From NCBI RefSeq assembly GCF_003703835.1, contig NZ_RDQR01000011.1, positions 1 through 64,000 on the forward strand: 64,000 nt of DNA, given 5' to 3'. Position 1 is the first letter of the stretch; each line of letters begins with the position of its first letter. The position numbers were made by a program, and so were the translations under genes. The notes under the pieces were generated by a model. It had not been told where the DNA came from and did no database searches. It saw nothing but the letters and a program-made list of their open reading frames with translations. Origin of the DNA: Auritidibacter ignavus. Lineage in GTDB: Bacteria > Actinomycetota > Actinomycetes > Actinomycetales > Micrococcaceae. Below, piece after piece: positions 9,030 to 24,991 of the stretch.

Positions 9030-10919
9030 CTAGTTGGTGGTCAACACCGCATCGAAGTAGGCGGCAATACCGTCCACATCATCCAGTGGTAACACAGCGG
9101 CCACATACTGGTCCGGACGGACAATCACAACCACACCGTCGCGAGAAAGTTCACGAGCCTCAAAGATGTCCTCGTCCGGTATAGTGGCGTAAATCTTCTC
9201 CCAGTACTCCAGGCCGAACTTCCCGACCTTGGGGCGGAAGATGGCTGGGGCATCCACGCAGTCGAAGCTCGCGGTGTCTTGCTGGTAGATGACATTCGGC
9301 TCAATCTGAGCGTCGATGTCGTCGCCTTCGCGACGGTATTTCACGAACGGTGAGTCCGCGGAGGTCTCCAACCACTCGGCCAACTTTGAGAGCTTGGAAT
9401 CGTGCTCGCCACAGGCCGGGCGGTCCGCAAAGGCGTACAGTCGCCAGCGACCATCCGCCACCGCCTGGTGGCCGATGTGCAAGGGGTTGGCGTCGCAGAC
9501 GCGCATGGCCTTAGCCGACTTGAAACGCTTACCCACGGGGAACCCGGCGGCCAACTCCTGGTGCTCGGTGCCGCCGGTGACCATGGAGGGACGGTATTCA
9601 GTCAAGAAGCCGGCCGGGAACTCGGCGGTCTTGACGTAGAAGTCCTCCAGGTATGTCGGATCTGGCAACTCTTCGGTCGGGGTGGCCATCAGGGTCGACC
9701 ATTCCTTATCGAAGTCGATGAGGTTCTTGGCCACCTCTTGGCGCTCATCCGAGTAGGTGTGCAACAGGGTCTCGGGGCTGCGCCCCGACAGCACCTGGCC
9801 CAGCTTCCAAGAGATATTGAAACCGTCCTGCATTGACACGTTCATACCCTGACCGGCCTTGGCCGAGTGCGTGTGACAGGCATCGCCGGTGATGAACACG
9901 CGCGGGGTCAACCGGTCGCGGTCTTCGGTGTCGACATCGTCGAAGTGATCGGTCAACCGGTGTCCTACCTCGTAAACCGAGTTCCAGGCCACCGACTTCA
10001 CATCCAGGGTGTAGGGGGTGATGATGTCGTTGGCCTTGCGGATGATCTCCTCAATCGGGGTGTCGCGCACCTTGTGGTCATCATCTAGAGGCACTTCACC
10101 CAAGTCCACGTACATGCGGAACAGGTGTCCACCCTCGCGAGGGATGTGCAGAATCTGGCCGTGCTTGGAGTTGATGGCGCACTTGGTGCGGATATCCGGA
10201 AAGTCGGTGTTAGCCAGCACGTCCATGACACCCCAGGCGTGGTTGGCGACATCGCCACTCATCACCCGCCCGATGGAATCGCGGACGCGAGAGTGGGCGC
10301 CATCGCAACCCACGACGTACTTGGCACGCACGGTGCGTTGTTCGCCCTTCCGGGGGCCGGCTACGTACTCCACCTGGACCTCGACCGGGTAGTCCTGCTC
10401 GCGGTCCACACTCAGTCCGAGGAACTTAATCCCATAATCCGGGGTAATCCGACCCGGGGCCCGCCGTGCAGCTTCGGCGTAGCCATCCAATACGCGTGCC
10501 TGGTTGACGATCAGGTGTGGGAACTCGGAGATGCCGGAAGGGTCATCGGGAGTCCGGGCGGTACGAATGATGTTCTCGGGGTTGGTGGGGTCCGGCTTCC
10601 AAAAACACATCTCGGTGAGCCAGAAGGCCTCGTCGATAATTTCGCTAGCGAAGCCAAAGGCTTGGAAGGTCTCCACCGAGCGGGCCTGAATACCGTCGGC
10701 CTGGCCGATCTCCAGACGTCCCTCACGGCGTTCAATAATGCGTGTATTGACTTCGGGGTAGTAGGACAGCTGAGCGGCGGCCAGCATACCGGCCGGACCG
10801 GTTCCGACAATCAGAACGTCCATTTCGTCGGGGAGTTCGTCGCTGCGATTGAGGCCGTAGCCAGCAGCAGGACGAATTCGGGGGTCTTCGGAGACATAGC
10901 CGTGTTCGTGGAAATGCAT
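9030..10919 (-). CDS. Class A flavin-dependent aromatic hydroxylase (phenol 2-monooxygenase / 3-hydroxybenzoate 4-monooxygenase type)
   Basis: A 629-residue NAD(P)H- and FAD-dependent monooxygenase that adds an ortho hydroxyl to a phenolic ring. The FAD fold is shown by GTGPAG (39-44), the DG motif in GCDGAHS (204-210) and the GD motif in TGDACHTHSAKAGQG (344-358), followed by a thioredoxin-like C-terminal domain. Length matches the phenol hydroxylase/MobA group (about 600-660). The start at 10919 is set by AAGGAG nine bases upstream; a longer frame to 10988 has no such site. Expected job here: making a catechol, possibly 3,4-dihydroxyphenylacetate from a monohydroxyphenylacetate, since no HpaBC-type hydroxylase is present. 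The true substrate is inferred from context only. Transcribed divergently from an IclR regulator. Confidence 0.92.
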   Translation of the reverse strand: MHFHEHGYVSEDPRIRPAAGYGLNRSDELPDEMDVLIVGTGPAGMLAAAQLSYYPEVNTRIIERREGRLEIGQADGIQARSVETFQAFGFASEIIDEAFWLTEMCFWKPDPTNPENIIRTARTPDDPSGISEFPHLIVNQARVLDGYAEAARRAPGRITPDYGIKFLGLSVDREQDYPVEVQVEYVAGPRKGEQRTVRAKYVVGCDGAHSRVRDSIGRVMSGDVANHAWGVMDVLANTDFPDIRTKCAINSKHGQILHIPREGGHLFRMYVDLGEVPLDDDHKVRDTPIEEIIRKANDIITPYTLDVKSVAWNSVYEVGHRLTDHFDDVDTEDRDRLTPRVFITGDACHTHSAKAGQGMNVSMQDGFNISWKLGQVLSGRSPETLLHTYSDERQEVAKNLIDFDKEWSTLMATPTEELPDPTYLEDFYVKTAEFPAGFLTEYRPSMVTGGTEHQELAAGFPVGKRFKSAKAMRVCDANPLHIGHQAVADGRWRLYAFADRPACGEHDSKLSKLAEWLETSADSPFVKYRREGDDIDAQIEPNVIYQQDTASFDCVDAPAIFRPKVGKFGLEYWEKIYATIPDEDIFEARELSRDGVVVIVRPDQYVAAVLPLDDVDGIAAYFDAVLTTN

Positions 10920-10970
10920 CGGTGGTTCACTCCTTGTCGGAAAAGACAGAGTAGATCGTGCCGTAGAGCG

Positions 10971-11006
10971 TGTTCTATAATCGAACACTAAACTCTATTA
11001 TCGAAT
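10971..11006. promoter_or_regulatory. Probable IclR-type operator: two repeats 20 bp apart
   Basis: In the divergent gap between the hydroxylase and the IclR gene, TGTTCTATAATCGAACA (10971-10987) is palindromic (TGTTC/GAACA). A degenerate copy, CTCTATTATCGAAT (10993-11006), matches 11 of 14 positions exactly 20 bp further on. Two sites spaced by two helical turns are a usual arrangement for IclR-family regulators, which bind as paired dimers. Confidence 0.5.
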
Positions 11007-11909: not shown

Positions 11910-11924
11910 TTGGGAGCGTTTCAT

Positions 11925-13571
11925 ATGCCAACTGTTGCTGCTGTTCTTGCCGATGCCCTGCACCGCCACGCCTCCGCCTTCTTTGGACTGATGGGCAATG
12001 GCAATGCCTATTTCATTGACGCGCTACATCAGCTCGGCACCGACATCGTGCCGGTCCGCCACGAAGTCGCCACGGTAGCCTCCGCCGATGCCTACTACCG
12101 GGTGTGCCAAGAACTCGCGGTGGCCACCACGACCTATGGGCCGGGCTTTACCAATACGCTGACCGCGCTCGCTGAAGCCTCGCTGGCGCAGATCCCGCTG
12201 ATCCTGGTGGTCGGAGACCAGCCCACTCCGGGGCGTCGCCCCTGGGATATCGACCAAGTTGCCACAGCGGCCTCCATGGACGTGCCGACACTGACCGTTG
12301 AGCCCTCCAACGCCGGCACCGTAGCCATCTCTGCTGTCGAACAAGCCGTGTCGCTACAACGCCCCGTGGTCCTCGCGATTCCCAATGACTTGGCCACCGC
12401 TGAGGTCAGCGCCGATGGTGCCGTCATCCCTGAGCTCACCCCTAAGGCGCCGAGCCCGGTAGTTGATACCGAGACCATCCACAACATGGCCACTGCCTTG
12501 CGGGAGGCTTCCCAGCCACTCATTCTGGGTGGTCGCGGTGCCCGTCACTGTGCTGTGGCCTTGCGTGAACTGGCCGGCCTGCTCGGCGCCGATGTGGCTA
12601 CCTCCGCACCCGGGCGCGGGCTGTTCTACACCGATGGCACCGACGGATTCACCGATTTGGGCGTGTGCGGAGGATTCGCCGCCCCGGGCTCCGCCCAGCG
12701 CATACGTGAAGCCGATGTTGTCCTGGTAGTCGGAGCCGGGCTGAACCAATTCACCATGGCCTTTGGTGAAGCCTTCGGCCCCGAGGCGCACGTCATCCAG
12801 ATTGACAGCGAACCACAGGCCACCCACGCCCGCGTCAACCAGTTCCTCAGCGCTGATTCCGCTACCGCCGTCCCCGCGCTACTGGATGCGTATAAAGCCA
12901 CCACCTCTGCGACCGAGTCGCGGGCGAAGACTGACAACACCGAAGACACCGCTCGCGAGCTCCGCGCCTATGAGACCGGCACCGAATTCGGCCCCGCCGG
13001 TGGGCTCGACCCCCGCGCGCTGAGCACCCGGTTGAACGAGCTGCTGCCACCAGACCGGATCTACATCACCGATGGTGGCCACTTCATCGGCTGGCCTAAT
13101 ATGTTCTTCGACGTGTCCGAGATCGACCACATGATCTTGCTGGGCACAGCCTTCCAAACTATTGGGCTGGGTTTCTCCGCCTCTGTCGGAGTTGCTCACG
13201 CTGCCCCGGAGAAAACCACTGTGCTGGTCACCGGTGACGGGGGTGGCATGATGGCCTTCGCTGACGCTGAATCCCTGATCCGTACTGCCAAGAGCGCCGT
13301 GGTCATCGTCTTCAACGACGCCGCCTATGGGGCTGAGGTCTTCCAATACGGCAGTAAGGGATTGGCCGAAGAACCCATGCGCGTCGGCGAGATCGACTTC
13401 GCCGGGCTGGCCACCAGCCTGGGCGCTCGCGCCTCCGTGATCCGCAGTTTCAACGATTTGAAGGACTTCACCCAGTGGGTTGCCGACGGCGCACACGGCA
13501 CCTTCGTATTGGACTGTCGCGTCGACGGGAGCATCGTCGCCCCGTATATGCAAGAGATCGCTGGGATTTAA
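11925..13571 (+). CDS. Thiamine-diphosphate-dependent enzyme (acetolactate synthase / benzoylformate decarboxylase-like)
   Basis: A 548-residue ThDP enzyme with the three usual domains. The N-terminal pyrimidine-binding domain includes the catalytic Glu in VRHEVATVASADAYYR and GPGFTNTLTALAEAS. A central domain follows, then a C-terminal PP-binding domain with GDGGG...N (GDGGGMMAFADAES then FNDAAYG). Such enzymes decarboxylate or condense 2-oxo acids. A benzoylformate-decarboxylase-like role on an aromatic 2-oxo acid would suit the aromatic cluster, but acetolactate-synthase-like catalysis cannot be excluded; no small regulatory subunit (ilvN) is adjacent. The ATG at 11925 follows GGGAG by about 8 bases. 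It stands between an IclR regulator and a TRAP transporter, with its own leader. Confidence 0.88.
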   Translation: MPTVAAVLADALHRHASAFFGLMGNGNAYFIDALHQLGTDIVPVRHEVATVASADAYYRVCQELAVATTTYGPGFTNTLTALAEASLAQIPLILVVGDQPTPGRRPWDIDQVATAASMDVPTLTVEPSNAGTVAISAVEQAVSLQRPVVLAIPNDLATAEVSADGAVIPELTPKAPSPVVDTETIHNMATALREASQPLILGGRGARHCAVALRELAGLLGADVATSAPGRGLFYTDGTDGFTDLGVCGGFAAPGSAQRIREADVVLVVGAGLNQFTMAFGEAFGPEAHVIQIDSEPQATHARVNQFLSADSATAVPALLDAYKATTSATESRAKTDNTEDTARELRAYETGTEFGPAGGLDPRALSTRLNELLPPDRIYITDGGHFIGWPNMFFDVSEIDHMILLGTAFQTIGLGFSASVGVAHAAPEKTTVLVTGDGGGMMAFADAESLIRTAKSAVVIVFNDAAYGAEVFQYGSKGLAEEPMRVGEIDFAGLATSLGARASVIRSFNDLKDFTQWVADGAHGTFVLDCRVDGSIVAPYMQEIAGI

Positions 13572-16957: not shown

Positions 16958-16992
16958 CGAATACTCTCAGATCTGCTGAGCAGGAGGCCTGC

Positions 16993-18486
16993 ATGCCGAA
17001 CCCTCTCCACGACGTTCCCGTCACCCCGGGCAAGATTATTGCGGTGCACGTGGCCTTTGAGTCTCGCGCCGCCCAGCGCGGTCGGCGCCCGGCCACCCCG
17101 TCTTATTTCCTTAAGCCCACGAGCTCCTTATCGGGCTCCGGTGCCGACGTAGCACGCCCCGCCGGGACCGAGTTGATGGCTTTTGAGGGCGAAATCGCCC
17201 TGATCATCGGGGAACCGGCCCGCCGGGTCTGCCTCGAAGACGCCTGGAAGCATGTGGCTGGGGTGACCGCCGCAAACGACCTGGGCATCTACGACTACCG
17301 CCCGGCAGATAAGGGCTCTAACCTCCGCTCCAAGGGCCGGGACGGTTACACGCCCCTGGGCCCGACCGTGATTGACGCCCAAAGCATTGATCCGACCGCA
17401 CTCCGGTTGCGCACCTGGGTCAACGGTGAGCTGGTCCAGGAGGATGGCACCTCCGAGGACCAGCTGATCTTCCCGCTGGCTCAGTTCGTGGCCGACCTGT
17501 CGCAGCACATGACCCTGGAAACCGGTGACGTGATCCTGACCGGTACCCCGGCCGGCTCGTCAGTGGTGGCCCCCGGCGACACCGTGGAGGTCGAGGTCGA
17601 TGCCCCCACCGCCACGGGCGCACCCACCTCGGGTCGGCTGATCACCCACATTACGGAGGGCCCCGGCGACTTCGACCCGGCGCTTGGGATGTTGCCGGCT
17701 GTCGATGAAAAGCAAGCCGAAGACGCTTGGGGATCCCGTGAAGCCGCCGGTCTGCCACCGGTTGCAGATCCCACCGCGGCGCTCCCTGATGAGTTGCGGA
17801 CCAAGCTGAAGGTAGCGCCCACCGCCGGACTATCGGCCCAATTGCGTTCCCGCGGTCTGAACAACGTCGTCATCGAAGGCGTGAAGCCCCAAACCGCGGG
17901 CACCAAGATGGTCGGGGTGGCCAAGACCCTGCGTTTTGTGCCCAACCGTGAGGACCTCTTCGGCAGCCACGGCGGTGGCTACAACGCCCAAAAACAGTGC
18001 TTTGATGCCGTCCGACCGGGCGAAGTCATTGTCATTGAAGCTCGCGGTGAAGCCGGCTCTGGCACCCTGGGCGATATTCTCGCCCTCCGCGCCCAGTACA
18101 ACGGAGCCGCCGGTGTGGTCACCGACGGGGGAGTCCGCGACTACGCCGAGGTTCAGCGTATCGGCCTACCGGTCTTCACCCAGACCGCGCACCCGGCCGT
18201 GTTGGGGCGTAAGCACGTGCCCTGGGAGGTCGATGTGGCCGTTAGTTGTGGCAACGCCACGGTGCTCCCCGGCGACGTGATCGTTGGTGACGACGACGGG
18301 GTGCTTGTGATCCCGCGCGATCTCGCCGACGAAGTTGTCGAGGCCGCTCTGGCCAAAGAGCACCAGGATGAGTGGGTGGCCAACCAGGTTCGAGCCGGCG
18401 CACCGATCAAGGGCACCTTCCCGCCCACTGGCGAACAGAAAGAGGCCTATGAGCGCTACGTCGCCGAAAGCGGGGAACAGAACTGA
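16993..18486 (+). CDS. Fusion of fumarylacetoacetate-hydrolase-family and RraA-family domains (hpa pathway)
   Basis: A 497-residue two-domain enzyme. Residues 1-240 are a fumarylacetoacetate-hydrolase (FAH) domain of the HpaG type (GEIALIIGEPARRV, SKGRDGYTPLGPTVID, LTGTPAGSSVVAPGD). Residues 280-480 are an RraA-family domain (GSHGGGYNAQ, EARGEAGSGTLGDILA, TDGGVRDY, GDDDGVLVIP). RraA relatives include aldolases and decarboxylases of 4-carboxy-4-hydroxy-2-oxoadipate and oxaloacetate. In the classic pathway HpaG has two FAH halves doing decarboxylation and isomerisation of the ring-cleavage acid. Here one half seems replaced by the RraA domain, which could take the decarboxylation. AGGAGG precedes the ATG. 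Overlaps the GntR start (ATGA). The role split is inference. Confidence 0.9.
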   Translation: MPNPLHDVPVTPGKIIAVHVAFESRAAQRGRRPATPSYFLKPTSSLSGSGADVARPAGTELMAFEGEIALIIGEPARRVCLEDAWKHVAGVTAANDLGIYDYRPADKGSNLRSKGRDGYTPLGPTVIDAQSIDPTALRLRTWVNGELVQEDGTSEDQLIFPLAQFVADLSQHMTLETGDVILTGTPAGSSVVAPGDTVEVEVDAPTATGAPTSGRLITHITEGPGDFDPALGMLPAVDEKQAEDAWGSREAAGLPPVADPTAALPDELRTKLKVAPTAGLSAQLRSRGLNNVVIEGVKPQTAGTKMVGVAKTLRFVPNREDLFGSHGGGYNAQKQCFDAVRPGEVIVIEARGEAGSGTLGDILALRAQYNGAAGVVTDGGVRDYAEVQRIGLPVFTQTAHPAVLGRKHVPWEVDVAVSCGNATVLPGDVIVGDDDGVLVIPRDLADEVVEAALAKEHQDEWVANQVRAGAPIKGTFPPTGEQKEAYERYVAESGEQN

Positions 18487-19184
18487 TGACCCCACCGACC
18501 ACAACCGAGACCGAGCAATTGTCCAAAGCCCAGATTGCTTACCGGTGGATTCGGCAACGGATCTTCACCCAAGAATTCAGCCCCGGCTACCGGCTGGTGC
18601 TGGCCACCATCGGTGATGCCCTGAATATGTCGGTGGTACCGGTGCGGGAGGCCATCCGCCAGTTGGAAGCCGAAGGACTGGTGACCTATCAGCGCAATGT
18701 GGGCGCACACGTGTCGATGGTGGATGAATCCCAGTACATCAACTCGATGCAGACCGTGGGCATTCTCGAAGGGGCCGCAACCGCCGCGGCTGCCCCGCAT
18801 GTGAGCGCAGATGATCTGGCCGAAGCCCGGGCGCTGAATGCGCAGATGCAGCGCTCGCTGTCACATTTCGACCCGGCCAGCTTCACCAAAACCAACCAGG
18901 CCTTCCACCAGGTGCTCTTCGCTCGGTGCCCGAACCAGCGACTGACCGATCTGGTCTATGCCGAATGGGACCGGCTGAACCACCTGCGGGAATCCACCTT
19001 CTCCTTCGTACCCGGACGCGCCACCGAATCGGTGGCCGAACACGCCCACATTCTGGACCTCATTGCCGGCCATGCGTCCGCGATCGAGATTGAACAAGCC
19101 GCCCGAGACCACCGCAACGCCACGCTGACCAGCTACCTGAACAGCCCCGAACACCAGAACCGATCGACCCTAGGAGAGTACTGA
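18486..19184 (+). CDS. GntR-family (FCD-type) transcriptional regulator
   Basis: A 232-residue regulator. The winged helix is at about 12-80 (IAYRWIRQRIFTQEFSPG, then VPVREAIRQLEAEGLV). An all-helical FCD ligand domain follows, with metal-binding-type His residues (AFHQVLF, AEHAHILDLI, RDHRNA). Its ATG overlaps the stop of the fusion gene and it ends two bases before hpaE, so it is coexpressed with the pathway it probably represses. FCD-domain regulators commonly bind carboxylic acid intermediates. The 11-bp motif before this operon and before the TRAP operon is its likely target. Confidence 0.93.
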   Translation: MTPPTTTETEQLSKAQIAYRWIRQRIFTQEFSPGYRLVLATIGDALNMSVVPVREAIRQLEAEGLVTYQRNVGAHVSMVDESQYINSMQTVGILEGAATAAAAPHVSADDLAEARALNAQMQRSLSHFDPASFTKTNQAFHQVLFARCPNQRLTDLVYAEWDRLNHLRESTFSFVPGRATESVAEHAHILDLIAGHASAIEIEQAARDHRNATLTSYLNSPEHQNRSTLGEY

Positions 19185-19186
19185 CT

Positions 19187-20695
19187 GTGACTGCCACCTC
19201 CCAACGCCCCGCCAACCTGCCCGATCAGATCCGTCACTACATCGGTGGCGAGTTCGTTGATTCCCTCGACGGCGACACGTTCGAGGTGCTCGACCCGGTC
19301 ACCAACGAGACCTACATTAAGGCTTCCTCCGGGAAGAAAGCAGATATCGACCGTGCCGTGGCTACCGCCAAGGACGCTTTCACCAACGGCCCCTGGCCGA
19401 CTATGCTGCCACGCGAACGCTCCCGCGTGTTACACAAGATCGCCGATGTGGTCGAATCCCGCGGTGACGAGCTGGCCGCCATGGAATGTTTCGACACCGG
19501 TCTACCGATTACCCAGGCTCTGGGCCAGGCCCGTCGTGCCGCCGAGAACTTCCGGTTCTTCGCCGACCTAATTGTCGCCCAGCACGATAACGCCTTCAAG
19601 GTGCCGGGCCGCCAGGCCAACTACGTCAACCGCAAGCCGATCGGTGTGGCCGGGCTGATCACCCCGTGGAATACCCCGTTCATGCTGGAATCCTGGAAGC
19701 TCGGCCCGGCCATTGCCACCGGGAATACCGTGGTGCTCAAGCCGGCCGAATTCACCCCGCTGTCAGCGTCGCTGTGGCCGGGCATCTTTGAAGAGGCCGG
19801 ACTACCGACCGGTGTGTTCAACATGGTCCAGGGTTTCGGTGAAGAAGGTTTCGCCGGTGACTCGCTGGTCAAGCATCCCGACGTTCCGCTGATCTCCTTC
19901 ACTGGTGAATCGAAGACCGGTGAGATCATCTACGCCAACGCCGCCCCCTATCTGAAGGGTCTGTCCATGGAGCTGGGCGGTAAATCCCCGGCCGTGGTCT
20001 TCGACGATGCCGATCTGCAGACCGCAATTGACGCGACCATTTTCGGGGTGTTCTCCCTGAACGGTGAACGCTGCACGGCCGGCTCCCGCATCCTGGTGCA
20101 GCGCGGGATCTACGATGAGTTCGTTCAGCGCTACGCCGCCCAGGCCAAGCGGGTCACGGTGGGTGTGCCCTCAGAGAAGACCACCGAGGTCGGCGCCCTG
20201 GTCCACCCCGAGCACTTCGAGAAAGTCATGTCCTATGTGGAGATCGGCAAGAACGAAGCCAACCTGGTCGCCGGTGGCTCCCGTCCCGAGCAGTTCCCCG
20301 ACGGCAATTTCGTTCAGCCCACCGTTTTCGCCGATGTCTCCCCGGACGCCCGGATCTTCCAGGAAGAAATCTTCGGCCCCGTGGTGGCCATTACGCCCTT
20401 CGACACCGAAGAAGAAGCCCTTCAGCTGGCCAATAACACCAAGTACGGTCTGGCCGCCTACATCTGGACCAACGATCTGAAGCGCGCCCACAATTTTGCC
20501 CAACACGTTGAGGCCGGCATGGTGTGGTTGAACTCTAATAACGTCCGCGACCTGCGTACCCCCTTTGGCGGGGTCAAGGCCTCCGGCCTGGGCCAAGAGG
20601 GCGGTTACCGCTCCATCGACTTCTACACCGACCAGCAGGCCGTGCACATCAACCTCGGCGAAGTCCACAACCCGGTCTTCGGCAAGCAGGACTAA
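19187..20695 (+). CDS. hpaE: 5-carboxymethyl-2-hydroxymuconate semialdehyde dehydrogenase
   Basis: A 502-residue aldehyde dehydrogenase that oxidises the ring-cleavage semialdehyde to 5-carboxymethyl-2-hydroxymuconate with NAD+. Catalytic residues are Glu262 (MELGGKSP) and Cys296 (NGERCTAGS); the cofactor region is visible at TPWNTPFMLESWKLGPA. The family assignment is supported by the neighbouring dioxygenase. The GTG start follows GGAGAG. Tandem with gntR upstream (2 bp) and hpaD downstream (49 bp). Confidence 0.95.
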   Translation: MTATSQRPANLPDQIRHYIGGEFVDSLDGDTFEVLDPVTNETYIKASSGKKADIDRAVATAKDAFTNGPWPTMLPRERSRVLHKIADVVESRGDELAAMECFDTGLPITQALGQARRAAENFRFFADLIVAQHDNAFKVPGRQANYVNRKPIGVAGLITPWNTPFMLESWKLGPAIATGNTVVLKPAEFTPLSASLWPGIFEEAGLPTGVFNMVQGFGEEGFAGDSLVKHPDVPLISFTGESKTGEIIYANAAPYLKGLSMELGGKSPAVVFDDADLQTAIDATIFGVFSLNGERCTAGSRILVQRGIYDEFVQRYAAQAKRVTVGVPSEKTTEVGALVHPEHFEKVMSYVEIGKNEANLVAGGSRPEQFPDGNFVQPTVFADVSPDARIFQEEIFGPVVAITPFDTEEEALQLANNTKYGLAAYIWTNDLKRAHNFAQHVEAGMVWLNSNNVRDLRTPFGGVKASGLGQEGGYRSIDFYTDQQAVHINLGEVHNPVFGKQD

Positions 20696-20744
20696 GTGCA
20701 CCCCAGGCCGCTGACCCGTCGTGAGCACAGAAAGAACAGAGACC

Positions 20745-21905
20745 ATGACTGATATGAAGGATCGCACGCTGACCTCCTCGGGATTCTACGTCTCCCAGGA
20801 GACCCCGATTCAGACCGATAACCCCATCCCCAGCCCGAGCGTGGAAGCACCCGATGTATTGCGGTGCGCCTCGATGGAACTGGTCGTCACCGACCTGGCC
20901 GCCTCTCGCGAGTTCTACGTGGACGTGCTCGGTTTGGTGGTCACCGATGAAGATGAGCACACCATCTACCTACGGTCGATGGAAGAGTTCATCCACCACA
21001 ACCTGATCCTGCGCGCCGGCCAGGTGCCCGCGGTGGCGGCATTTTCCTACCGCGTGCGCACCCCGGAGGACCTCGACAAAGCCGTGGCCTTCTACGAAGA
21101 ACTCGGCTGCCGGGTCGAACGCAAAAAGGACGGGTTCGTCAAGGGCCTGGGTGACTCGGTGCGCGTGGAAGACCCACTGGGCTTCCCCTATGAGTTCTTC
21201 CACGAGGTCGAGCACGTCGAGCGTCTGGCCTGGCGCTACGACCTCTACAGCCCCGGGGCCCTGGTGCGTCTGGACCACTTCAACCAGATCACCCCCGATG
21301 TCCCCCGGGCAGCCCGCTACATGCAGGATCTAGGCTTCCGCGTCACCGAGGATATTCAGGACGAACACGGCGTGGTCTATGCCGCCTGGATGCGACGCAA
21401 ACCCACCGTGCACGACACCGCCATGACCGGCGGTGACGGCCCGCGGATGCACCACGTGGCCTTTTCCACCCACGAGAAGCACAACATTCTGGCCATCTGC
21501 GACAAGATGGGGGCCTTACGCATCTCCGACCGCATTGAGCGTGGCCCGGGACGGCACGGTGTCTCCAATGCCTTCTACCTCTACCTGCGTGACCCGGATG
21601 GCCACCGCGTGGAGATCTACACCCAGGACTACTACACCGGCGACCCGGACAACCCGGTGGTCACCTGGGATGTGCACGACAACCAGCGACGTGACTTCTG
21701 GGGCAACCCGGTTGTACCCTCCTGGTACACCGACGGTTCCCTGGTCCTGGACTTGGACGGCAATCCGCAGCCGTTGACCAGCCGAGAAGAAGACTCCGAA
21801 ATGGAGGTCACCATCGGCGCCGACGGCTTCTCCTATACCCGCGAATCCGGTGAAGAAATGCCCGACTGGAAGAAAGGCGAATATAAGCTGGGCAACCAGC
21901 TCTAG
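20745..21905 (+). CDS. hpaD: Homoprotocatechuate 2,3-dioxygenase (extradiol)
   Basis: A 386-residue ring-cleaving enzyme of the type I extradiol (vicinal oxygen chelate) family that opens 3,4-dihydroxyphenylacetate. The metal ligands fit exactly: His178 (RLDHFNQ), His237 (MHHVAF) and Glu290 (HRVEIYTQDYY). They are shifted by 23 from His155/His214/Glu267 of the Brevibacterium fuscum enzyme, which this sequence resembles closely throughout (e.g. GPGRHGVSNAFYLY). The extra N-terminal 23 residues are polar. ATG at 20745 is preferred; an in-frame GTG at 20721 would add 8 residues. The metal could be Fe or Mn. This gene fixes the identity of the operon. Confidence 0.97.
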   Translation: MTDMKDRTLTSSGFYVSQETPIQTDNPIPSPSVEAPDVLRCASMELVVTDLAASREFYVDVLGLVVTDEDEHTIYLRSMEEFIHHNLILRAGQVPAVAAFSYRVRTPEDLDKAVAFYEELGCRVERKKDGFVKGLGDSVRVEDPLGFPYEFFHEVEHVERLAWRYDLYSPGALVRLDHFNQITPDVPRAARYMQDLGFRVTEDIQDEHGVVYAAWMRRKPTVHDTAMTGGDGPRMHHVAFSTHEKHNILAICDKMGALRISDRIERGPGRHGVSNAFYLYLRDPDGHRVEIYTQDYYTGDPDNPVVTWDVHDNQRRDFWGNPVVPSWYTDGSLVLDLDGNPQPLTSREEDSEMEVTIGADGFSYTRESGEEMPDWKKGEYKLGNQL

Positions 21906-21944: not shown

Positions 21945-23354
21945 ATGAGCACCACCGAGAATTTCTCCACCGTTCTGGCCGAGTTGCGCGACCAGCTACC
22001 TGCCGATGCGGTGGTGGACGATCCCCGGGCGTTGAGTGTGTATCAATACGATCGTTCCGGACATCTCAGCGACACTGTGCCCTCAGCTGCGGTCTTCCCC
22101 CGCACCGTCGAGGAGGTTCAGCACATCGCACGGGTGTGCTTCCACCATCGGATCCCGATGGTGCCTCGTGGCGCGGGGACCGGGCTGGCCGGCTCGGCCA
22201 TCGGCAGCAGTGGCGAGATCATGGTCTGCACCGACCGGATGAACCAGATCCTGCAACTGCAACCCGAAAACCGTTTGGTCACCGTCCAGCCGGGCATCCT
22301 CAACGGAGAACTCAACACCTACCTGGCCACCCAGGGCTTCTGGTGGCCACCGGACCCGGCCTCCAAAGACATCTCCACCGTGGGTGGCAATATCTCCATG
22401 AATGCCGGAGGGTTGCTCTGCGCCAAATATGGGGTCACCCGTGAAGCGGTGCTGTCGCTGCAGGTCGTGCTCGCCGACGGGTCACTGATCACCGTCGGAC
22501 ACCAGACCGTCAAAGGCGTCACCGGCTACGACTTGTGCGCGCTGCTGATCGGATCCGAAGGCACCCTGGGCATCATCGTCGAGGCCACCCTGAAAATCCG
22601 GCCCCTCACCCCGGGTAGCACCGTGACTCTCGGCGCCTCGTTCCCGACCGTGACCGATGCGGCAGAGGCCGCCTCAGCGGTCACCCGCCACGGCCACACC
22701 CCGGCGATGATGGAGCTACTCGATGACCTCACCGTGGCGTTGGTGACAGAACACACCGGCGAAAACTTCGGCTCCGGCAACTCCTTCCTGCTAATCCAAA
22801 CCGACGGGCCGGCTGCCGCAACCGAAGCCGAAGAGATTGGGGCGATCCTCACCGACCACCAGGCCGAGCTGACCATCACCAACGACCCGGAAGAATCCCA
22901 GCGCCTGGTCGGTATCCGTCGCAGTGTCTTCCCCTCTCTGGAGGCCAAAGGACAGCTACTGGTCGAAGATATTGCCGTGCCCCGGTCCACAATGGCCGAA
23001 GCCTTCGCCCGAATTCGCGACCTCGAACAATCCTCCGGGATCAAAATCCCCACCGCCTGCCACGCCGGAGACGGCAACCTGCACCCGGTATTTGTCGTCG
23101 AAGGTCAAGACCACGGCCAGAACCGCGAGGTGCCCGAGGCCATCTGGGACGTAGCCGGACAGGTCTTTACCATGGCCCTGGAATTGGGTGGCACCCTCAC
23201 CGGTGAACACGGGGTGGGCGTGCTGAAATCCCGGTGGCTGCCCGACGAGCTGGGTGACGTGCAGTACCGGCTGCAACAGAACATCAAAGCCGCCTTCGAC
23301 CCCCACAACCTGATGAACCCGGGTAAAGTCTTTCGCCCGGCACCCACCGCCTAA
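21945..23354 (+). CDS. FAD-binding oxidase, GlcD/D-lactate dehydrogenase type, inside the hpa operon
   Basis: A 469-residue flavoprotein of the VAO/PCMH (FAD_binding_4 plus FAD-oxidase C) family, which oxidises 2-hydroxy acids such as glycolate, D-lactate or D-2-hydroxyglutarate. The FAD domain has VPRGAGTGLAGSAIG and PPDPASKDISTVGGN; the C-terminal domain ends GNLHPVF and GTLTGEHGVG. It lies between hpaD and hpaH with a clean AAGGA site, yet the standard pathway has no 2-hydroxyacid oxidation. It might oxidise an entering substrate (a mandelate or hydroxyphenyllactate type) or recycle a side product. A paralogue at 55068 sits with malate synthase and is the better glycolate oxidase candidate. 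Confidence 0.92.
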   Translation: MSTTENFSTVLAELRDQLPADAVVDDPRALSVYQYDRSGHLSDTVPSAAVFPRTVEEVQHIARVCFHHRIPMVPRGAGTGLAGSAIGSSGEIMVCTDRMNQILQLQPENRLVTVQPGILNGELNTYLATQGFWWPPDPASKDISTVGGNISMNAGGLLCAKYGVTREAVLSLQVVLADGSLITVGHQTVKGVTGYDLCALLIGSEGTLGIIVEATLKIRPLTPGSTVTLGASFPTVTDAAEAASAVTRHGHTPAMMELLDDLTVALVTEHTGENFGSGNSFLLIQTDGPAAATEAEEIGAILTDHQAELTITNDPEESQRLVGIRRSVFPSLEAKGQLLVEDIAVPRSTMAEAFARIRDLEQSSGIKIPTACHAGDGNLHPVFVVEGQDHGQNREVPEAIWDVAGQVFTMALELGGTLTGEHGVGVLKSRWLPDELGDVQYRLQQNIKAAFDPHNLMNPGKVFRPAPTA

Positions 23355-23363
23355 GGACAGCCC

Positions 23364-24149
23364 ATGTTGGATCACCAGACCCACACTGCGATCGCCGATG
23401 AACTCCACCGGGCCAACCGAGACCGCACCCCGGTCCCGCTCCTGACCGCCCGATACCCGGACATGGTGATTGAAGACTCCTACGCCATTCAAAAAATCTG
23501 GGCCGAACGCCAGGTCGAAGCCGGCCGCCACCCGGTCGGACACAAGATCGGGCTGACCTCCAAGGCCATGCAGGACGCCACCGGCATCGACGAGCCCGAC
23601 TACGGGGTGATCTTCGATGACCAGGTCTTCGACTCCGGCCATGTCTACCAGTGGGAGAACTACACCCACCCGCGCATTGAAATGGAATTGGCCTTCGTGC
23701 TCCACCAGGACCTCGAAGGCCCCGGCGTGACCCTCTTTGATGTGCTACGGGCCACCGAATACGTGGTGCCGGCTCTGGAAGTGCTCGACTCTCGGATCGA
23801 GATGCAGGGCCGTACGATTATCGACACCATCTCCGATAACGCCGCACTGGGTTCGATGGTCATCGGCGGCCGGCCGGTCTCCCCGGATGCGGTGGACCTA
23901 CGCTGGGTGGCCGGTGCGCTGTGGCGTAACCAAGAGATTATTGAAACCGGGGTCTCCTCGGGAGTGTTGAACCACCCCGGCAATGGCGTGCACTGGCTGG
24001 CCAATCGGATCGCCGGTCATGGCGACCACCTGGTTGCCGGAGAAATCGTTCTCGCCGGGTCCTTCACCCGTCCGATGTGGGTCTACCAGAACGACACGGT
24101 CTATGCCGATTACGGTGCATTGGGAGTCGTGACATGTCACTTCGCGTAA
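23364..24149 (+). CDS. hpaH: 2-oxo-hepta-3-ene-1,7-dioate hydratase
   Basis: A 261-residue FAH-superfamily hydratase that adds water to 2-oxohept-3-ene-1,7-dioate in the homoprotocatechuate pathway. Diagnostic segments are HKIGLTSKAMQDATGIDEPDYG, the acidic metal site in RIEMELAFVL, and GNGVHWLANRI near the C-terminus. Length is normal (about 260-267). Nine bases separate it from the flavoprotein gene, and its last 16 bases overlap the hpaI start, so it is translationally coupled to the aldolase that uses its product. Confidence 0.95.
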   Translation: MLDHQTHTAIADELHRANRDRTPVPLLTARYPDMVIEDSYAIQKIWAERQVEAGRHPVGHKIGLTSKAMQDATGIDEPDYGVIFDDQVFDSGHVYQWENYTHPRIEMELAFVLHQDLEGPGVTLFDVLRATEYVVPALEVLDSRIEMQGRTIIDTISDNAALGSMVIGGRPVSPDAVDLRWVAGALWRNQEIIETGVSSGVLNHPGNGVHWLANRIAGHGDHLVAGEIVLAGSFTRPMWVYQNDTVYADYGALGVVTCHFA

Positions 24150-24991
24150 AACAACTCCTCGCCCAAGACCCTGCCACCAGTGGCCTATTGCCCGGGGCGC
24201 TACCCAGCCTGCGGGATCTGTTCCCCGCCCAGAGCGGCAAACCCGACCAGCACGGCCTCATCGTCGGGATCTTCGTCTCTTCCGGTGACGCCGGGGTTGC
24301 CGAAATCTGTGCCGGGGCCGGATTCGATTACCTGCTCATCGACGGCGAGCACTCTCCGCTGAGTCTAGAATCCATCCAGTCCCAGCTGCGCGCCATCGCC
24401 GGTTACCCGGTGCTCTCGGTGGTTCGGGTGCCGCATAACGACCCGGTGTTGATCAAGCAATACCTGGATCTGGGCGTGCAATCACTGATTGTGCCCATGG
24501 TCGACACCCCCGACCAAGCCCGGGCGGCTGCTTCGGCGGTGGCCTACCCGCCGGACGGGGTCCGCGGCCTCGGCTCGGCCCTGGCCCGCTCAGGTCGCTG
24601 GTCCAGGATCCCCGACTACTTGGCGCGGGCCCGCCACACCCTGACCCTGTTGGTCCAGATCGAATCCCACACCGCGGTCAACCACGCCGCTGAGATTCTG
24701 GCCACCGACGGTGTTGACGGAGTCTTCATCGGCCCCTCGGATCTCTCCGCCTCGATGGGGCTGCTGGGCCGCCAAACCCACCCGGACGTGGTTGCCGCCG
24801 TCAAGCACGTCATGGCCGAAGCGAATGCGGTCGGCAAGATCGTGGGGGTCAACGCGTTCCACGCCGATCAGGCTCGCGACTACGTGGCCGCCGGGGCCGA
24901 CTTCGTCAACGTCTCCGCCGATGTGGCGATCCTGGCCCGCGGAACCGAGAAGCTGGTGGCAGAGTGGGGGATCGAACAGGAAGCGCCGTGA
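24134..24991 (+). CDS. hpaI: 4-hydroxy-2-oxo-heptane-1,7-dioate aldolase
   Basis: A 285-residue class II (metal-dependent) pyruvate aldolase of the HpcH/HpaI family that splits the last pathway intermediate into pyruvate and succinate semialdehyde. Visible are the metal site IDGEHSP, the catalytic-region Arg in YPPDGVRGLGSALARSG, QIES and the second metal Asp in VFIGPSDLSASMG. The ATG at 24134 overlaps hpaH; it leaves a roughly 35-residue N-terminal extension before the family core (GIFVSSGDAGVAEI). The stop overlaps the start of the AraC regulator. Confidence 0.95.
   Translation: MSLRVKQLLAQDPATSGLLPGALPSLRDLFPAQSGKPDQHGLIVGIFVSSGDAGVAEICAGAGFDYLLIDGEHSPLSLESIQSQLRAIAGYPVLSVVRVPHNDPVLIKQYLDLGVQSLIVPMVDTPDQARAAASAVAYPPDGVRGLGSALARSGRWSRIPDYLARARHTLTLLVQIESHTAVNHAAEILATDGVDGVFIGPSDLSASMGLLGRQTHPDVVAAVKHVMAEANAVGKIVGVNAFHADQARDYVAAGADFVNVSADVAILARGTEKLVAEWGIEQEAP

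Follow-up and report, generated by a model that had tools for sequence, protein, structure and literature searches.

The window analyzed here is a stretch of 64,000 nucleotides from Auritidibacter ignavus (contig NZ_RDQR01000011.1 of assembly GCF_003703835.1, positions 1 to 64,000), which carries a cluster for the meta-cleavage of homoprotocatechuate. Its genes are arranged in the order fusion, GntR regulator, hpaE, hpaD, FAD oxidase, hpaH, and hpaI, where the first gene encodes a fumarylacetoacetate hydrolase (FAH) domain joined to an RraA-like domain (Table 1). A preliminary description of this DNA had read the gene as a single FAH fused to RraA, and both Pfam domains (FAA_hydrolase, 167.9 bits for a cut-off of 23.9; RraA-like, 115.5 bits for a cut-off of 24.5) bear this out. 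The open reading frame is a single conserved protein and not two frames joined by chance, because the full-length NCBIfam model NF009399/PRK12764 fits residues 7 to 490 with 797.5 bits (cut-off 444). This model and the 33 other loci with the same architecture (two of them cut at a contig end, a few with frames longer than usual) rule out a chance join or a sequencing artifact. The AlphaFold model, obtained with 11 sequences, supported two folds (mean pLDDT of 77.7, pTM of 0.59) and was too weak in parts of each half and between the halves to judge packing or channelling.

Table 1. Features of the fusion gene and of its neighborhood in the window
Feature	Position	Strand	Evidence
FAH-RraA fusion, 497 aa, NF009399/PRK12764 family	16993..18486	+	ATG start; full-length model match
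AGGAGG, likely ribosome-binding site of the fusion gene	16982..16987	+	Read directly; ends five bases before the ATG
FAH (FAA_hydrolase) domain, residues 17-203	17041..17601	+	PF01557
Arg25, where FAH enzymes have the catalytic His of their His-Glu dyad	17065..17067	+	R in 33/33 fusion rows with a letter
Glu65-x-Glu67, FAH metal ligands	17185..17193	+	33/33 rows with letters
Asp96, third FAH metal ligand	17278..17280	+	34/34 rows
Lys114, conserved FAH active-site lysine	17332..17334	+	34/34 rows
RraA-like domain, residues 277-439	17821..18309	+	PF03737; solved relatives 5x15 (RraAS2) and 3noj (HMG/CHA aldolase)
Gly360-Asp361, aligned with Gly101-Asp102 of HMG/CHA aldolase	18070..18075	+	34/34 rows
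Arg382-Asp383, aligned with Arg123 (enolate-stabilizing) and Asp124 (metal ligand)	18136..18141	+	34/34 rows
GntR/FCD regulator	18486..19184	+	Start shares one base with the fusion stop
hpaE, 5-carboxymethyl-2-hydroxymuconate semialdehyde (CHMS) dehydrogenase	19187..20695	+	TIGR02299, 649.6 bits, above the cut-off of 638.35
hpaD, homoprotocatechuate 2,3-dioxygenase, glyoxalase/VOC type	20721..21905	+	TIGR02295, 429.5 bits (cut-off 321.4); PF00903
GlcD-like FAD-linked oxidase, between hpaD and hpaH	21945-23354		
hpaH-like hydratase	23364..24149	+	TIGR02312, 335.9 bits, slightly under the cut-off of 351.5
hpaI-like aldolase	24077..24991	+	TIGR02311, 284.0 bits, under the cut-off of 368.8; PF03328
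FAD phenol-hydroxylase-type monooxygenase	9030..10988	-	PRK08294, 1004.5 bits
Thiamine pyrophosphate (TPP)-dependent enzyme	11910-13571		

The position of the fusion relative to the other hpa genes recurs in other genomes. Of the 33 fusion loci examined for context, two come from the same genome and three run into a contig end. HpaE was found downstream of the fusion in 30 and HpaD in 29, the loci devoid of HpaD being the three at contig ends and one more (L045). Across genomes, which were the unit of all survey counts with no correction for relatedness, the fusion passed its cut-off in 20 of the 296 genomes sampled from the class Actinomycetes, and HpaD (TIGR02295) in the identical 20, spread over 7 families. 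The survey of the fusion beside hpaD that the preliminary description had proposed thus gave a positive answer at the level of both loci and genomes. When 376 genomes of the phylum were sampled, HpaD passed in 13 and the fusion in 8, every one of them among these 13 (7 of the 8 belong to the class sample as well). The five others carried either a canonical FAH (G325, G349, G370, and G397) or an RraA alone (G395). The strict tie between fusion and HpaD in the class sample is a new link for a model that had been named without a reaction or a pathway. The HpaG-C model (TIGR02303) passed in none of the 296 class genomes; among 14 named controls, two genomes passed the same search. Matches to HpaF, the 5-carboxymethyl-2-hydroxymuconate (CHM) isomerase (CHMI), occurred at E ≤ 0.001 in 20 class genomes, among which G208 was the sole carrier of the fusion (39.9 bits). 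In our view, the fusion is very probably the non-orthologous HpaG of the actinobacterial homoprotocatechuate pathway, acting on the tri-acid delivered by HpaE, i.e., CHM or its tautomer 5-oxopent-3-ene-1,2,5-tricarboxylate (OPET), to give a di-acid.

The genome of A. ignavus (2.59 Mb in 53 contigs, completeness of 100) encodes two FAH proteins besides the fusion, on contigs C1 and C10, and one RraA-like protein besides the fusion, a frame of 169 aa. No second FAH was found on the contig of the window, and none of the proteins of the genome reached HpaG-C strength. The search of the genome with PF02962 (HpaF/CHMI) gave no match, as did the controls of that search; on annotated HpaF, this model scored 154 to 170 bits in four of five reference records, the fifth, from a Deinococcus plasmid, giving no match. 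The statement that the locus has neither a second FAH nor HpaF was therefore accurate, and separate hpaG and hpaF genes, which the preliminary description had allowed for elsewhere in the genome, were not found at family strength for HpaG-C and HpaF (HpaG-N, TIGR02305, was not surveyed). One could imagine that the fusion lies outside the main route, for instance clearing the tri-acid or a toxic side tautomer, and that the HpaG step falls to the FAH encoded on C1 or on C10. Oxaloacetate tautomerase is itself a protein of the FAH family. Its known function in metabolite repair (PMC10825186) gives this idea a precedent, but we hold it to be very improbable: the C1 and C10 proteins fall within clades of lone FAH, apart from HpaG, a protein of HpaG-C strength is found in no class genome, and the fusion adjoins hpaE and hpaD in locus after locus.

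The part of the pathway that follows the fusion comes in two versions. HpaH and HpaI were found in 18 fusion loci and a DapA-type HpaI instead in 12, with no locus having both, and all 30 loci uncut by a contig end have one aldolase or the other (two DapA-type members that were scanned gave 355 and 358 bits with TIGR02313, under its cut-off of 396.7). Since the fusion is kept with either module, it probably acts upstream of the step that these enzymes catalyze. These counts also bear on the possibility that RraA is a second pyruvate aldolase at the end of the pathway, splitting 4-hydroxy-2-oxoheptanedioate into pyruvate and succinic semialdehyde, while the FAH half performs the HpaG step alone. 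The best-studied enzyme with this fold, the 4-hydroxy-4-methyl-2-oxoglutarate/4-carboxy-4-hydroxy-2-oxoadipate (HMG/CHA) aldolase, catalyzes aldol cleavage (PMC5065237), clusters with a single FAH exist, and the one lone actinobacterial relative that was scanned (L118, 267 bits with PRK08245) lies beside an L-fuconolactonase-like gene (under the cut-off of that model). Nevertheless, an aldolase is already present in all 30 uncut loci, and RraA is kept with both kinds, which makes this role quite unlikely; RraA as a stand-in aldolase was set aside on the same grounds.

The clusters with a canonical FAH show what the fusion takes the place of. In G325, G349, G370, and G397, the order is DapA, canonical FAH, HpaE, HpaB, and HpaD, with a GntR gene in front in three of them. 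No match to RraA or HpaF was found in these loci at E 0.001, nor any to HpaF in the whole genomes, which are 93 to 97% complete. Further FAH genes occur elsewhere in G325, G349, and G397, while only the FAH of the cluster, in pieces, was found in G370. The cluster of a Deinococcus plasmid also has one FAH and neither RraA nor HpaF. When they are compared with the fusion clusters, FAH-RraA occupies the place of the canonical single FAH, for which it appears to be a substitute in clusters that are otherwise alike. The reasoning of the preliminary description, in which RraA fills the gap left by the missing second FAH and HpaF, is weakened by these clusters, since those of the four genomes and of the Deinococcus plasmid have one FAH and neither RraA nor HpaF. 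A replacement of HpaF by RraA, argued from the absence of HpaF, was likewise discarded, as HpaF is also unmatched in the four genomes whose cluster has no RraA. RraA accompanies a different lineage of FAH, in which the dyad histidine is changed to arginine, and not the bare absence of HpaF.

This lineage is distinct. A histidine-glutamate pair forms the catalytic dyad of FAHD1 (PMC8398924), and no such histidine was present in any fusion row with a letter at position 25. The same position is occupied by histidine in the HpaG-C/G2 (3 of 3), Deinococcus (2 of 2), and other FAH rows (13 of 13), by glutamine or alanine in HpaG-N rows, and by serine in one FAH row added later. The glutamate partner of the dyad is glutamine in 23 fusion rows and glutamate in 10. 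A maximum-likelihood tree of 64 FAH rows (rooted at the midpoint, fus_L087 left out, Pb_HpaG1 forming a long branch) put the 33 fusion FAH halves into one clade (100/98), which joined a clade of 10 lone FAH (100/98); the N-type and C-type domains of HpaG and the Deinococcus FAH fell outside. His19, Arg25, Arg103 (lysine in 2 fusions), and Asp106 are common to the fusions and their sisters. The closest solved chains to the FAH half are HpcE of Escherichia coli (131.3 bits for the C-domain, 74.6 for the N-domain) and that of Thermus (1wzo). All HpaG models scored under their cut-offs with the fusion: TIGR02303 with 159.6 bits (276.4), TIGR02305 with 115.4 (228.65), and NF011750 with 136.5 (811).

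The sister FAH occur in what seems to be a second operon for ring cleavage. Among six sister loci, none had an RraA, five had an HpaE-like dehydrogenase and a LigB-type dioxygenase, and four had a gene of the acetoacetate-decarboxylase (ADC) family. At L122-L125, L127, L173, and L174, lone FAH of the R25 type were seen in operons with an HpaE-like aldehyde dehydrogenase and a LigB-type dioxygenase, and frequently also with an APC permease and an ADC-family gene. Their membership varies (L173 and L174 had no LigB match), and none had a match to RraA, HpaH, or HpaI. ADC-family proteins may also be aldolase-dehydratases, and the idea that these loci pair an FAH with a separate decarboxylase was dropped for this reason.

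The RraA half belongs to a fold with known decarboxylases. HMG/CHA aldolase, which also decarboxylates oxaloacetate, uses Arg123 to stabilize the enolate and Asp124 as a metal ligand (PMC5065237), and FlDet is a dehydratase/decarboxylase of the RraA family (PMC8563752). The preliminary description had considered that the catalytic residues of the RraA half might be lacking; they are present in every row, and together with PF03737 these Gly-Asp and Arg-Asp pairs make it a candidate member of the RraA-fold class II pyruvate aldolases/decarboxylases. The half scored under the cut-offs of the HMG/CHA aldolase models (PRK09262, 93.5 versus 179; TIGR02798, 87.7 versus 304.5) and of the RNase E activity regulator RraA (PRK09372, 52.1 versus 136), and it fits the unnamed subfamily PRK08245 (230.1 versus 208). 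With no substitution at the FAH metal ligands and lysine or at the two RraA pairs among the 34 rows, both active sites look usable. A purely structural RraA half, contributing oligomerization or stability while FAH does all the catalysis, would agree with the hexamers that RraA proteins can form (PMC5738090) and with the single canonical FAH that serves in other clusters. We judge it improbable, as the invariance of the metal and arginine residues would not be expected in a scaffold.

The RraA of G395 is the counterpart without FAH. It matched the fusion model with 342 bits, over residues 267-498 of the model, and lies beside DapA and HpaD, with no FAH match in the 18-kb stretch around it. In the RraA tree, three of the deepest fusions form a group with it (98/77), so it may be a fusion stripped of its FAH half. 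L004, L108, fus_L087, and fus_L039 were excluded from this tree, in which the lone L115 and L116 sit on a long branch and are placed with uncertainty. At L144:3350-7891, a fusion-family RraA of 241 aa stands alone, with no FAH match in the locus. It is flanked by DapA-HpaD on one side and, on the other, by a protein of 604 aa whose C-terminal part is a dienelactone-hydrolase (DLH) domain; genes for a sugar ABC transporter lie upstream.

The catalytic steps and their allotment to the two halves, which we infer throughout, would be the following. The fusion would convert the tri-acid from HpaE to a di-acid, to be hydrated and cleaved downstream, and we tentatively take the RraA half as the decarboxylase and the FAH half as the isomerase. 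A divalent metal held by Asp383 and its partners would let the RraA half grip the 2-oxo-acid end of OPET, and Arg382 would stabilize the dienolate after the loss of CO2, in a vinylogous form of the oxaloacetate decarboxylation by RraA-fold aldolases. The FAH half would catalyze an enol/keto proton shift before or after the loss of CO2, from CHM to OPET and/or from 2-hydroxyhepta-2,4-diene-1,7-dioate (HHDD) to 2-oxohept-3-ene-1,7-dioate (OHED). A single chain with both sites would stand in for the pairing of OPET decarboxylase (OPETD) and HHDD isomerase (HHDDI) in the classical HpaG, which requires two FAH units. There, the complex of OPETD (C-type, with metal) and HHDDI (N-type) has an activity 60-fold higher than that of OPETD alone and 12-fold higher than that of HHDDI alone, CHMI speeds up the process, and the conversion of CHM to OPET is also reported to run enzyme-free at a very low rate (PMC12718150). 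Since OPET is a vinylogous oxaloacetate, chemical reasoning would allow either site to release CO2. We lean toward RraA because the FAH half has no dyad histidine and has RraA along with it, and because RraA is the half beside HpaD in G395.

Several observations weigh against giving decarboxylation to RraA, or against the role of the fusion as a whole. Canonical single-FAH clusters have no RraA at all. The FAH half is nearest to the C-domain of HpcE, the assigned decarboxylase half (an assignment based on structure only, according to PMC12718150), and it could itself decarboxylate, because its metal ligands and lysine are intact. The sister lone FAH also have Arg25 and belong to another meta-cleavage-like operon without RraA. 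In G395, an R25-type FAH lies elsewhere in the genome, in a stretch with an ADC-family and a dehydrogenase gene, and the lone RraA directly adjoins an alpha/beta-hydrolase (DLH) gene and neither HpaE nor FAH, so that its substrate may differ. Finally, an "hpaF" of Corynebacterium aurimucosum is located elsewhere in that genome (cauri_0890) (PMC2830990).

In the opposite allotment, FAH would be the OPET decarboxylase, like the C-terminal domain of HpcE, and RraA a tautomerase or isomerase replacing the metal-less N-type domain of HpaG and/or HpaF. The higher scores of the FAH half with HpaG-C than with HpaG-N, and with the C-domain of HpcE than with its N-domain, as well as its intact metal site and lysine, point in this direction. 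So do the need of OPETD for a partner protein to decarboxylate efficiently (PMC12718150) and the exchange of the methyl protons of pyruvate by HMG/CHA aldolase, a tautomerase-like half reaction (PMC5065237). We consider this arrangement unlikely all the same, because the FAH half has lost the dyad histidine that HpaG-C, HpaG2, and Deinococcus FAH keep and falls outside their clade, and because breaking C-C bonds is the known activity of the RraA-fold enzymes mentioned above. Decarboxylation by RraA is thus somewhat preferred, although the data do not decide between the two. The broader scenario, possible if rather doubtful, is that RraA is a new OPET decarboxylase and the FAH with its histidine-to-arginine change a dedicated tautomerase, which displaced the ancestral single FAH in Actinomycetes and left HpaF unneeded. 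If true, one chain with two unrelated metal sites would take an unstable tri-acid through tautomerization, CO2 loss, and isomerization.

Other genes of the window may connect to the pathway. The match of the hpaI-like frame starts at residue 62, and its true start is probably internal. The phenol-hydroxylase-type monooxygenase is likely the ring hydroxylase that supplies the pathway, perhaps standing in for HpaBC; genes similar to this PRK08294 type were found in 12 of the 33 other fusion loci. The GlcD-like oxidase had no match in these loci at E 0.0001. Its role, shared with the TPP-dependent enzyme and with a TRAP-type transporter identified by reading, may be to supply the pathway with a 2-hydroxy or 2-oxo acid. 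The fusion of the window is 71 to 77% identical to copies from Corynebacterium, Kocuria, and Rothia but only 56 to 58% identical to the fusions from two genomes within its own family (comparison with L036, L037, L038, L043, and L047, and with L068 and L069), a pattern suggesting that the hpa cluster was transferred horizontally. The cluster with the fusion is also plasmid-borne, in Rhodococcus sp. NBC_00297 and Paenarthrobacter aurescens TC1, and one plasmid (L107) was typed as conjugative. In the TC1 plasmid, hpaD is encoded in the DNA though missing from the annotation table, and the fusion (L107:9013-10425, pTC2) is annotated as "putative Dimethylmenaquinone methyltransferase," a label probably carried over from old RraA annotation. 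Another fusion genome has a second HpaD over the cut-off (L152, G117:C1:595213-596091, 330.8 bits), with no RraA match beside it.

In actinobacteria, 4-hydroxyphenylacetate, tyrosine, and aromatic amines can be degraded through the meta-cleavage pathway of homoprotocatechuate, as reported from the growth of Arthrobacter sp. Rue61a (PMC3534580) and from a gene cluster of C. aurimucosum (PMC2830990). Within the class Actinomycetes, the central decarboxylation/isomerization step of this pathway appears to depend on a non-textbook protein, and in many homoprotocatechuate-degrading actinobacteria the HpaG step of the textbooks probably runs on different chemistry, judging from the sequences. Databases call the fusion a "fumarylacetoacetate hydrolase family protein" or even a "Dimethylmenaquinone methyltransferase," and we recognized no study of an FAH-RraA protein in the open-licence literature (PMC). 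The suggestion of a possible new form of HpaG holds in part: the fusion occupies the HpaG position, recurs beside hpaE and hpaD, and keeps its RraA residues, but its architecture was already recorded as NF009399. What was known is this database model; what is new is the tie to HpaD, the replacement of canonical FAH, the Arg25 lineage, and the intact RraA residues. The sharing of decarboxylation and isomerization between the two FAH domains of HpaG has been called ambiguous (PMC12718150), and a natural variant with one domain exchanged for another fold lets this division of labor be probed by separating the activities.

Like HpaG/HpcE, the fusion lies beside hpaE and hpaD, has two domains in one chain, and has an FAH domain with the ExE...D metal site, and it would presumably catalyze the same step from CHM/OPET to OHED. 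Unlike HpaG/HpcE, where two FAH domains occur in one chain or as a tandem pair, it has one FAH and a second domain, RraA, of unrelated fold, and its FAH half comes from another lineage, with arginine for the dyad histidine and the HpaG domains outside its clade. The FAH of Deinococcus and of G325, G349, G370, and G397 resemble the fusion in being the only one in an hpaE/hpaD cluster, some without HpaF (in D. radiodurans, HpaF is found beside the single FAH), and differ from it by their canonical dyad histidine and by the absence of RraA from the cluster; among solved structures, Thermus HpcE (1wzo) is a relative of this kind. The RraA half shares its fold with HMG/CHA aldolase (3noj, against which its Gly-Asp and Arg-Asp residues were compared), RraAS2 (5x15), and FlDet. 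NF009399/PRK12764 describes the same full-length family as the protein of the window, under a name that gives no reaction or pathway. The hpaGLEDHI cluster of C. aurimucosum has the gene order of the window (hpaG, regulator, E, D, H, and I), and its hpaG was named OPET decarboxylase in 2010, in passages that do not mention RraA (PMC2830990). From this gene order, we infer that the hpaG of C. aurimucosum would also be an FAH-RraA fusion.

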